Assembly: GCA_026400735.1 (NCBI GenBank)
Contig: JAPLOL010000044.1
Location: 2,501-66,500 of the forward strand
Direction of reading: 5' to 3'
Length of the DNA: 64,000 nt
Source of the DNA: Alphaproteobacteria bacterium
Lineage (GTDB): Bacteria; Pseudomonadota; Alphaproteobacteria; Caulobacterales; Aquidulcibacteraceae
The position numbers were made by a program, and so were the translations under genes. Positions within the stretch are counted from its first letter, which is position 1. Each line of letters starts with the position of its first letter. This document shows, one piece after another, positions 15,767 to 19,570 of this stretch. Below the pieces are notes generated by a model. It was not told the origin of the DNA, did not search any database, and worked only from the letters and a program-made list of their open reading frames with translations.

Positions 15767-16552
15767 TCAGGCCGCCGCGAGGCGTGCTTCGATCAAAGCA
15801 AGCCGTTGCGGCGACGCCTTTGCCTCGCCGACCGGCGGCACTATCAAAGTAGATTCCTGCGTGATCTCCGCTTCGGCCAATCGGCTAAGCGGCAACGTCT
15901 GCACCTGCGGCTCACCAATCGGCAGCGTGGCCGCGCCGTACACTTTGACCTGATGGTCGGCTGGATAGTCCTCCATCAGGACTTCCGCGAGCAACGCTAT
16001 GCGGCGCGGATCGGACTCGAACACGCGCAACGTCCGATCTCCGACTAGCGCAATCTGCCAAAGAATGAGCACCGCGGTGGGATCGAATTTGCGAGCGTTG
16101 ATGACGAAGTCCGTCGCCTCAAAACTCTGACAACCCAGCCAACCTGGATCGAAACCGAGATCCGCAAAGATGCAAGCGTCGGCGGATACTGCGGGCAGCA
16201 TCTCCGCTTCGAACCCTTCCTCGCGCGCGCGCCGCACACTTTCATGCGACGGGTACACATAGACGCCCGGGTGTCCGTAGAAGGCCGCGCACACACGCTT
16301 CCCCGCCCTCACGGCTCCAAGAATGGTCTCGATCATGCTCTCATATGTATCACTGCGCGCGCGATCACGGCCGTAGAGGTGCTGAAGCGAGACTACGTTT
16401 TGATTGAGCGACAGCAGGAAACTTTGCGCGAGCCGATCGCCGACGACCTCAAATACAATATCGGCTGACTCAATATGATAGCGCGCTTCGATCGTGCACT
16501 GGTTTGCGATTTTGATGCCCGTCCCGACCACCACTAAGCTTCCACGCGCCAT
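15767..16552 (-). CDS. Borosin-type peptide alpha-N-methyltransferase (OphMA/SonM-like, tetrapyrrole-methylase fold)
   Basis: '[31 protein letters not shown]', '[85 protein letters not shown]', '[11 protein letters not shown]', C-terminal 'STLIVPP': matches the recalled OphMA and SonM pattern closely. Confidence 0.85.
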   Translation of the reverse strand: [261 protein letters not shown]

Positions 16553-16562
16553 ATCTCACACC

Positions 16563-19304
16563 TCACAGCTTCAACGTGTCCATTTCCGCTTCTTCGATCA
16601 GCTCGTTGAGCAAATCCTGCACCGTGATTGGCGCGAAATTCGCAATTTCGCCGCCAGCAAGTTGCGCCATCAAGGCATCGTAATCCGCCTGCATGTCGCC
16701 TAGATCGCCCCCGGCCAGCGCGCTGACGAGCCGCCGCGCGCCAGCAATGTTGTCCGCCGCCAACTCCACCTGCGCCAATTCCAGTAGTCCGCGGGAGAGA
16801 CACGGCTGCATTCCAAGTGTCATGCTGAGGCGTACGCCGCGCAACAAACTCTGCCGCGCAGCCGCCATATCTCCAATCAAGCGCTGGTCGTTTCCCACTT
16901 CGATCAGCGCATGGACGCACGTGCGTTGATCGCCGCCGTCGCGCGCGAGATCGTACGCTTGCTGATGATGGGCCAATGCAGCCGGCCGATCGCCGCGTAA
17001 TGCAAACAACGTCCCAAGACGGCGATGAAGCATGGAGCGAAACTGGGGATGGGGCGCCGCGTCTTCGAGGCGCAGGCTCATCTCATAATTGTCGCGCGCA
17101 TCGTCCAGCCGCTCTTCGAGCGCCGCCAGATCGCCCGCGTAGACGTGCGAGGCCATCATGCCGAACGTGTCGCCAATCTGGCGCGCGAGCCGGAACCCAC
17201 GCCGAATTTGCAGCCGCGCGCTATCAATCCGAGCGAACAAAAGATGGAGCGCGCTTGACGAGATGCTCGCGTAACAACAACCGCGCAAATCGCCGACGCT
17301 TTCGCGCAAATCGAAGGCGGCAGCGTAGAGCGCATCACTCGCTTCGAAATCGCCCCTCATGTGAGCGAGATTGGCCAGCGCGTGACTGGCGTGCGCGCGT
17401 GCGAGCACAACCTCGCTCGGCACGGTCAGCACACTCGATGCAGCGACGCTGGCGCCTTCCGCATCACCCTGATGCACAAGAAAGTTTGCGCGGATGCCCG
17501 CGAAATGACTTTTAAGCGATGGATCTGCGATGTCGGCGCTAAAAATCTCGACGGCTTCGCGCATCATCGAACGGGTATACAGGAAGTAGCACAGCGGTTC
17601 GACGACGCCCTGCAACAAAGCATTGGCCTGGGTTTCCGCCGCATAAAACCACGCCGCCCGGATTTCGAGGAAGCCCAGGCGCAACTGCTCCAACGCCGCG
17701 CCGCGCGTCGGCACCGCGGCGCTTTGCATGCAGTCACGGACCGCTTCCAAGTAATAGGTGGCGTGCCGTGCGCGAGTCGACGCCTCCTCGGTCGCATTCT
17801 CTCCGAGGCGCTCCTTTGCGAATTCGCGCACCATCACATGCATAGCGAAGCGGCCATGCGAAGCGCGCACCAAAAGACCTTTGCGTTCGAGCCCCGAAAA
17901 TGTTTCCAGATCTACTTCGGAGATATTCGAGGCCGCCGCGAGATCAAACGCCTTTACGAAAACCGAGAGGCGAGCGAGCGCCGTCTGCTGCACGGGAGTC
18001 ATCAAACGCCAGACACCCTCGAAAACACCGCGCAGGCTTTGGCGCTGTTCGCCATCGCTTGCTGGCGCCAAGAATGTGATGCTTTGCTGAATCCGCTCGA
18101 GGATTTCCTCCAACGACAAGACCGGTGTCCATTGCGCGGTTAGACGCAACGCCAGCGGCGAGCCGTCCACCAATGCACTGATCTTTCGAAAGATTGCCCG
18201 CTGCGCCTTTGATACAGCGAAGTCCGGAGCCTTCTGACGAGCTTCGTGCACAAACAGCTCAAGCGCCGGAGAGTCGCTCCCCCCAGATGATGCAAGCCCT
18301 TCCACGTGCAGGAGCGTCTCGCCTGCAAAACCCAGAGGCTCGCGGCTCGTCACCAACACTGAAAGCCAGGCGCATTGCACGACCCACGCGCCGATGAACT
18401 CCGCCTGACTCGCAATCGTCTCGGCGTTGTCGAGCACGAGCAGCATTTGCTTGTCGCGGAGATAGTCGACGATCTGTTCATCGACACCGCGAGCGGCGTT
18501 CAGCCTCAGGCCAAGAGCGGACGCAACGATCGCGGCGGCCTCTGCCTCATTCGCGACGGTTTCTAACGATGCAAAACAAACCGGCCGGCTCGACGCAACT
18601 TCCGCCCCGACGCGCAACGCCAGTCGCGTCTTACCGTTTCCACCTGGCCCCACGAGAGTCAGCAACCGCGACTGCGTCAGCTTCGATAGGATTTCGCCAA
18701 GTTCTCGCGTGCGTCCGAAGATTGGACCTGCGAGCGCTTCCGGTCCGCCGCCCTCGAACAACAAGGAGCGCAACGGTGGAAACTCCGTCCGCTTGAGTTT
18801 TGGGTGGACCAGCGAGGCAAGTCGCAGCGGCTCTCTCACGCCTTTGAACCGGCTGAGACCGAGGTCCAACAGTTCCGCGTCCCGCGGCGCAGGAAAACCT
18901 GCAACCGCCTCGTCGCTCACGACGATCTGACCGCCCCAACCGCTCGACATGATGCGTCCGCCACGATTGGCGACGGCGCGATCGACCTGCCCCACACCAT
19001 CGTCTTCGCAAGCATGCACGCCGATACGCAAATCGAGGCCACCGACCGCGGTCCAATCTTGGCGCTGCATTGTCAGTTGCATCTCAAGTGCGCACTGCAA
19101 GGGATTGCCCGACCTAAACGTTGCGAAGACGCCATCGCCGGACCGGTCCTGGATGACGCCACCGTGGCGCGCAATGAGCTCATCAGTGAGAGCGTCCAAC
19201 CGCGCGATTGCGATTTGCATTTGCGCCGGCGCCTTCTCCCAGCGCTCGGTGCTGCCTTCGATATCGGCGAAGAGATACCCAACCGGCGGCCCTGATGTTC
19301 CCAT
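16563..19304 (-). CDS. Class III adenylate/guanylate cyclase domain - P-loop NTPase - TPR-like regulatory protein
   Basis: 'GYLFADIEGSTERWE', 'DRSGDGVFATF', 'AVANRGGRIMSSGWGGQIVVS' cyclase motifs; 'LTLVGPGGNGKTRLALRV' P-loop; long TPR-like C-terminus. Start MGTSGPP chosen (GGGAG upstream); an upstream in-frame start at 19388 is possible. Confidence 0.85.
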   Translation of the reverse strand: MGTSGPPVGYLFADIEGSTERWEKAPAQMQIAIARLDALTDELIARHGGVIQDRSGDGVFATFRSGNPLQCALEMQLTMQRQDWTAVGGLDLRIGVHACEDDGVGQVDRAVANRGGRIMSSGWGGQIVVSDEAVAGFPAPRDAELLDLGLSRFKGVREPLRLASLVHPKLKRTEFPPLRSLLFEGGGPEALAGPIFGRTRELGEILSKLTQSRLLTLVGPGGNGKTRLALRVGAEVASSRPVCFASLETVANEAEAAAIVASALGLRLNAARGVDEQIVDYLRDKQMLLVLDNAETIASQAEFIGAWVVQCAWLSVLVTSREPLGFAGETLLHVEGLASSGGSDSPALELFVHEARQKAPDFAVSKAQRAIFRKISALVDGSPLALRLTAQWTPVLSLEEILERIQQSITFLAPASDGEQRQSLRGVFEGVWRLMTPVQQTALARLSVFVKAFDLAAASNISEVDLETFSGLERKGLLVRASHGRFAMHVMVREFAKERLGENATEEASTRARHATYYLEAVRDCMQSAAVPTRGAALEQLRLGFLEIRAAWFYAAETQANALLQGVVEPLCYFLYTRSMMREAVEIFSADIADPSLKSHFAGIRANFLVHQGDAEGASVAASSVLTVPSEVVLARAHASHALANLAHMRGDFEASDALYAAAFDLRESVGDLRGCCYASISSSALHLLFARIDSARLQIRRGFRLARQIGDTFGMMASHVYAGDLAALEERLDDARDNYEMSLRLEDAAPHPQFRSMLHRRLGTLFALRGDRPAALAHHQQAYDLARDGGDQRTCVHALIEVGNDQRLIGDMAAARQSLLRGVRLSMTLGMQPCLSRGLLELAQVELAADNIAGARRLVSALAGGDLGDMQADYDALMAQLAGGEIANFAPITVQDLLNELIEEAEMDTLKL

Positions 19305-19345
19305 CGCGATCTCCCACGAGAGGGAGCCGCCGGAGGGCCAGTCGC

Positions 19346-19570
19346 CTACTCGCTCTTGGAACTTCTGGTCAGTCCAAGCAGAAAGCATAGCGGCTGTTCG
19401 CCGGTCAGCAATTTCTTGATCTCGGACGCGCTTGCGGAAGCAACCGCAGCGGCATCCGCCCCGGTTAGGCCAAATGCCCGCATGACGCTCATCTTGTCCT
19501 TCGCGTAGCTACGCTGCAGCCCCATGTCCTGCGACAGGGCGTTGAACATGGCGATCGTTGCTGTCGTCAT
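19346..19570 (-). CDS. Putative split-borosin precursor peptide (BBD-like domain + C-terminal core)
   Basis: 74 aa MTTATIAMFNALSQDMGLQRSYAKDKMSVMRAFGLTGADAAAVASASASEIKKLLTGEQPLCFLLGLTRSSKSE; AAGGAG RBS 9 nt before the ATG; LigA-like/BBD-like helical pattern (VMRAFGLT..D..AV....S.EIKKLL) followed by a hydrophobic tail; in operon with the OphMA-like methyltransferase. Confidence 0.72.
   Translation of the reverse strand: MTTATIAMFNALSQDMGLQRSYAKDKMSVMRAFGLTGADAAAVASASASEIKKLLTGEQPLCFLLGLTRSSKSE

Follow-up and report, generated by a model that had tools for sequence, protein, structure and literature searches.

Does a 64,000-nucleotide stretch of an Aquidulcibacteraceae genome (order Caulobacterales; contig JAPLOL010000044.1, hereafter the window) encode a borosin system in which the N-methyltransferase and its substrate peptide are separate proteins, and what do the genes transcribed with them contribute? 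An earlier note, made from the DNA letters alone, had proposed a split layout like that of SonM/SonA: a borosin alpha-N-methyltransferase of 261 amino acids (aa) without a fused core at 15767–16552, and a free 74-aa peptide with a helical region resembling a borosin-binding domain (BBD) at 19346–19570. Both open reading frames (ORFs) were confirmed at these positions on the minus strand, as was the absence of a fused core, and the comparisons described below make it highly likely that the two proteins are a type IV split borosin pair, a methyltransferase with a free precursor.

When the 261-aa protein was compared with all PDB sequences using phmmer, each of the 25 matches at E<=0.01 was a borosin methyltransferase, with E-values of 3.5e-71 for SonM, 3e-52 for dbOphM, 5e-49 for OphMA and 3e-46 for MroMA1. 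The SonM residues Y58, R67, Y71, Y93, E146, W166 and Q167, which were mutated or described by Miller et al. (PMC8429565), correspond to Y60, R66, Y70, Y92, E145, W165 and Q166 in the window protein. These seven are invariant across 15 sequences aligned to SonM; SonM F99 is Tyr in the window protein. The ORF stops after the methyltransferase domain and does not form the single chain of the fused borosins (types I–III). Judged by its sequence, the protein is a SonM-type borosin backbone N-methyltransferase with an intact active site.

Pfam TP_methylase (PF00590) also recognizes this protein, and there are weak matches to the NCBIfam cobalamin/siroheme (tetrapyrrole) models, which raises the alternative of a tetrapyrrole-like methylase with some other small-molecule substrate, the 74-aa ORF being an unrelated small protein. 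Borosin enzymes belong to the same superfamily. The tetrapyrrole models score 14–21 bits against equivalog or subfamily cut-offs of at least 163 (163–400), and the best NCBIfam model, YabN, reaches 44 bits against a cut-off of 525. With scores so far under the cut-offs and PDB matches that are all borosin, identity as CobA, CbiF or CobI was rejected. No tetrapyrrole enzyme is found among the PDB matches, where SonM and OphMA stand out strongly; the earlier note had named cobalamin or siroheme methylases as the best matches that would speak against it, and SonM and OphMA proteins appear in their place. Since the borosin active-site Tyr, Arg, Trp and Gln are also kept and a BBD is encoded next door, this alternative is very improbable.

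The peptide can be compared with known borosin substrates in several ways. Searched alone, it matches only SonA chains in the PDB (E=0.002–0.005). A profile restricted to precursors from the genus, with no SonA-like homologues in it, matches SonA at 4e-13 and independently matches residues ~321–377 of OphMA/dbOphMA, the substrate domain, at 2e-4 to 5e-4. Two designed armadillo-repeat chains rank between the SonA and OphMA matches; they align over no more than 23 residues and are taken as compositional. Pfam LigA, an annotation that SonA bears, is matched by 11 of the 17 members of the wider precursor family. In the AlphaFold2 model, made from an alignment that did contain SonA-like homologues, five helices (residues 4–14, 16–24, 26–32, 38–44 and 48–55) are followed by a disordered tail; the mean predicted local distance difference test (pLDDT) score is 74. 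When this model was searched against the PDB with Foldseek, the first 19 of 25 matches were SonA chains and four of the other six were OphA/MroMA1. The best SonA values are a probability of up to 0.99, a template modeling (TM) score by target of up to 0.87 and a root-mean-square deviation of 1.2 Å; no E-value is below 0.3, which is weak but in line with so short a query (74 residues).

Purifying selection acts on the precursor gene: in all 10 comparisons among five relatives, nonsynonymous divergence (dN) in the BBD is below synonymous divergence (dS), and dN<dS also holds for the core, which has few variable sites. Two precursor-like matches are significant genome-wide (9e-29 and 4e-26; the next is 0.18), each at a methyltransferase locus. 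An HTH_31 identity was tried and rejected, with a score of 16.6 against a cut-off of 27 and a SonA-like fold that contradicts it. On these sequence and model comparisons we regard the 74-aa peptide as the free precursor of the methyltransferase, with a genuine BBD where a BBD-like helical region had been suggested.

Type IV split borosins have already been described (PMC8429565), borosins as a whole being classed as types 0–XI (PMC11395268), and the pair in the window, from a Hyphomonadaceae-like alphaproteobacterium, is a new member of that known type. The proposed layout thus corresponds to a described one: SonM/SonA of Shewanella oneidensis (PMC8429565) likewise consists of a discrete ~260-aa methyltransferase and a discrete ~75-aa precursor with a five-helix BBD and a C-terminal hydrophobic core. 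Unlike the core of SonA, to which it is unrelated in sequence, the window core reads CFLLGLTR. The fungal fused borosins (OphMA, dbOphMA, MroMA1) have a homologous methyltransferase domain and a substrate/BBD stretch that is homologous at the profile level; unlike theirs, the substrate in the window is not fused to the methyltransferase, and in a paralogous operon (see below) it is in frame with an oxidase.

How would the pair work? Precursor residues ~1–56 would fold into the five-helix BBD and dock on the methyltransferase dimer, and the hydrophobic tail, PLCFLLGLTR, would be drawn through the active site of the enzyme. Methyl groups derived from S-adenosylmethionine would be placed on backbone amide nitrogens, expected at L65 and L67. 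These sites come from SonA, which is methylated at L63 and I65 (PMC11285071): GEQ (57–59) of the precursor is aligned with GDS (55–57) of SonA, which predicts L65 and L67 provided that the linker has no gap. The core tail across five close relatives is CF[LIMV]LGLTR[ST], with position 64 variable and L65 and L67 constant.

Other cores occur within the genus. A second type, [AP]PK[IV][IV]x[IV]P, is found at loci L036–L039, and two further divergent tails at L004 and L035; at least three core types (L036–L039, L004, L035) on a common leader in one genus suggests several natural borosin products. In two relatives, genomes G031 and G053, the DNA separating the oxidase and methyltransferase genes carries a short peptide with no BBD: the one at locus L040 (~9723–9893) has a tandem PKIVHA motif (APKIVHA-GAPQ-PKIVHA), and the frame of its counterpart at L041 (~10590–10760) is broken.

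In the window, the order of transcription on the minus strand is LuxR/PAS regulator, oxidase, 74-aa peptide, cyclase/NB-ARC/TPR protein and methyltransferase. The features, with the evidence for each, are as follows.

15767–16552, minus strand: borosin alpha-N-methyltransferase, SonM-like, 261 aa, no fused core (PDB phmmer; active-site residues)

16563–19304, minus strand: class III nucleotide cyclase domain, NB-ARC/STAND ATPase and MalT-like TPR (Pfam Guanylate_cyc, NB-ARC, TPR_MalT)

19346–19570, minus strand: free borosin precursor, 74 aa, with BBD at residues ~1–56 and core tail GEQPLCFLLGLTRSSKSE (SonA matches, AlphaFold2, Foldseek, selection)

19580–19585, minus strand: AAGGAG ribosome-binding site of the precursor (read from the DNA; counterparts upstream of other precursors)

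19509–21113, minus strand: flavin amine oxidase of the L-amino-acid oxidase (LAAO) family, 534 aa (PF01593 1.2e-38; PDB LAAO 3.7e-55; fold of the paralogue; junction geometry)

21186–22199, minus strand: LuxR/PAS regulator, upstream of the oxidase (GerE, PAS_4; homologues at several cluster loci)

22245–22260, plus strand: Crp-type palindrome TGTGAAATTTCGCACA in the divergent LuxR/Crp promoter (site scans; best conserved promoter block)

22311–23054, plus strand: Crp-family cyclic-nucleotide-binding regulator, transcribed away from the operon; its start is inferred (cNMP_binding 1e-12, HTH_Crp_2 4e-14)

The precursor starts at an ATG, with AAGGAG 9 nt upstream. The LuxR/PAS ORF opens at 22988, and the ATG at 22199, with GGAGG, is its likelier start. 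The cyclase ORF (941 aa) opens at 19388, and its first ATG overlaps the precursor gene; a start at ATG 19304 is likelier than one at 19388 because the extra stretch shares DNA with the precursor gene and the homologous region starts only beyond it.

The oxidase has the PF01593 domain, the flavin adenine dinucleotide (FAD) Rossmann motif and, from the model of a paralogue, the LAAO-type fold. Its gene is coupled to that of the precursor: the window and four relatives have a 62-nt overlap between the two genes, which are read in different frames, and the remaining loci have a gap of -4 to +11 nt. A programmed frameshift joining the two in the window finds no support: a strong ribosome-binding site precedes the precursor itself, and a -1 slip would require a different frame relation. 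The same genome (G000) has a second, paralogous operon on contig C158 (locus L004) in different surroundings, comprising a methyltransferase 63% identical to the window copy, a cyclase-STAND-TPR protein and a 600-aa ORF (12141–13943) in which the amine oxidase frame stays open past the oxidase and goes on to encode a SonA-like domain followed by a core. Because an ATG inside this ORF is preceded at 11 nt by GGAGG, separate translation of the peptide is also conceivable. In the model of the fusion, the oxidase portion is of good quality and resembles L-amino-acid, L-lysine and arginine oxidases; confidence is low for the attached BBD, whose pLDDT block means lie at about 46–61.

The genes also travel together. 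At E<=1e-30, 11 of the 30 genomes in the genus encode the methyltransferase, and precisely these 11, and no others, encode the oxidase and the cyclase-STAND-TPR protein. If the three were independent, identical sets would have a chance of 1 in C(30,11), or 1.8e-8, a figure that is not corrected for phylogeny and that the true probability exceeds because the species are related. Recognizable precursors are found in nine of these 11 genomes; beyond them there is one weak precursor match, in G059 (E=0.003). The oxidase adjoins the precursor or methyltransferase at all 12 methyltransferase loci, both loci of the source genome included, and within the fetched flanks of these loci the cyclase is present at 11 and the Crp gene at 10. 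Flanking genes are common to the window locus and three others only. Outside the genus, 29 methyltransferase loci (Luteibacter, Luteimonas, Alteromonas, Shewanella waksmanii and other Pseudomonadota) have no oxidase or cyclase in their flanks, some of which end at contig ends. The methyltransferase itself is rare, as had been supposed for Caulobacterales-type bacteria: it is found in 12 of 298 genomes of the order, 11 of the 12 belonging to one genus, and in four of 386 sampled genomes of the class, the source genome included (E<=1e-35). Plasmid-borne relatives (20 records) are all <60% identical; an amine oxidase is not listed in the annotated plasmid regions of Bradyrhizobium and Azospirillum, and a third region that was opened, from Burkholderia, carries no annotation.

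What, then, does the oxidase act on? Its fold and FAD motifs are common to the bacterial L-amino-acid, L-lysine and arginine oxidases (8jhe, 7eih, 8t8a), and the FAD-facing Lys of that family may be represented by an invariant residue, K324 in the paralogue. These closest solved relatives take free substrates. In one alternative, the borosin pair is real but the oxidase likewise attacks free amino acids, releasing H2O2 together with either ammonia or a keto acid, and is encoded here because peptide and oxidase share one physiological purpose; co-regulation alone would yield gene coupling too. The 62-nt overlap, the near-zero gaps, the one in-frame fusion and the strict co-occurrence favor a shared substrate instead, and unlike the solved enzymes, the cluster oxidases are coupled to, or in frame with, a borosin precursor. 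We consider the free-amino-acid role rather unlikely. Action on the borosin peptide, supported by the coupling, the fusion and the co-occurrence, is moderately likely; the translationally coupled enzyme would then attack either an amine exposed when the leader is cleaved off or the Lys/Arg side chains of the core.

The remaining partners may form a switch. In the cyclase domain, both metal-binding Asp residues and the transition-state Asn and Arg are kept, and the substrate-selecting Lys is Asp in all aligned members. The central NB-ARC/STAND-to-TPR part resembles HaaT, a TPR protein of cyclophane RiPPs (ribosomally synthesized and post-translationally modified peptides; NCBIfam NF041717), at 69 bits; unlike HaaT, the window protein bears an N-terminal cyclase domain. 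Membership of the HaaT family was rejected, 69 bits against a cut-off of 1125 being similarity only. In sequence, the recognition helix of the Crp protein, QREAVNR, retains the R-E-x3-R of Escherichia coli CRP. Across the genus loci, with at most one mismatch to TGTGAN6TCACA, there are eight sites in 18.5 kb near cluster gene starts versus three in 263 kb elsewhere, a 38-fold enrichment (p=5e-8). With at most two mismatches the overall excess is only 3.6-fold, and a site lies beside the Crp gene at 10 of 13 scanned loci (window, L004, L032–L035, L039–L041, L047). A scan of the whole window with two mismatches found 19 sites versus 16.7 expected, no excess over chance. In six aligned promoters, the best conserved block is GTGAAATnTnGCAC.

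Together, the cyclase-STAND-TPR protein and the Crp regulator, with its conserved promoter site, would turn the operon on, and control of the operon by such a cyclic-nucleotide loop is probable. Alternatively, both proteins could be generic regulators that travel with the cluster and form no loop over the borosin genes. This would fit the unlinked cyclase copies within the genus (G000:C21, G032, G042) and a cyclase without the canonical substrate-selecting residues. It is harder to reconcile with the absence of the cyclase from every genome of the genus that has no methyltransferase, with the linkage of the Crp gene at 10 of 12 loci and with the conserved palindrome in the promoter, and we regard it as unlikely.

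Several points weigh against the scheme as a whole. For maturation, no dedicated protease or transporter/exporter was identified. Two of the 11 genomes, G031 and G053, have no recognizable BBD in any precursor. The best-known relatives of the oxidase use free amino acids, not peptides, and the cyclase, which has no usual ATP-selecting Lys, may be non-canonical or inactive. Finally, the Crp-site test and its masks were designed after the window site had been noticed; the enrichment is thus supportive, not blind, because the masks were chosen post hoc.

Unlike SonM/SonA, the window cluster adds an LAAO-like enzyme and a cyclase-STAND-TPR protein, in the order oxidase-precursor-cyclase-methyltransferase. 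The earlier note had suggested that such a pairing with a cyclase/TPR protein and an amine oxidase may be undescribed. The partners are conserved and lineage-specific in all that was sampled, and the oxidase/cyclase/Crp module and the oxidase-precursor fusion match no borosin type in the literature searched, outside which the gene-cluster tables of the main surveys lie; a literature search pairing borosin with amine oxidase gave no connection, only unrelated mentions in graspetide work. The novelty of the module is therefore provisional. At its fullest, the proposal is of a new architecture, in which the precursor is tied or fused to an LAAO-type flavoenzyme that oxidizes the N-methylated peptide in cis (for instance at Lys/Arg of the core or at the N-terminal amine once it is exposed) to yield an N-methylated and oxidized RiPP, with an operon-encoded cyclase-STAND-TPR sensor acting via a dedicated Crp protein; we put this forward tentatively, at somewhat less than an even chance.

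As of 2021, no type IV pathway had been tied to a final natural product (PMC8429565), and in 2024 few mature borosins were known, for want of specific peptidases (PMC11395268). With its conserved second enzyme, at least three natural core types within one genus and a probable built-in switch, this split system offers a tractable route to a final product and its role. Peptides that are both N-methylated and oxidized could be produced directly with an oxidase that brings along its borosin substrate.

In two other alphaproteobacteria (L065, 9497–11218; L066, 9589–11283), the methyltransferase domain lies within an ORF of ~570 aa, which, with a weak in-frame BBD match, is a possible bacterial fused borosin. 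Cyclase-STAND-TPR genes unlinked to borosin genes are found at L043 (5034–7802), L044 (6315–9131) and L045 (7329–10013), the last with a Crp gene directly upstream. In the window, two adjacent plus-strand ORFs at 10406–11158 and 11214–12068 resemble, by eye, tandem TorF-type putative porins.

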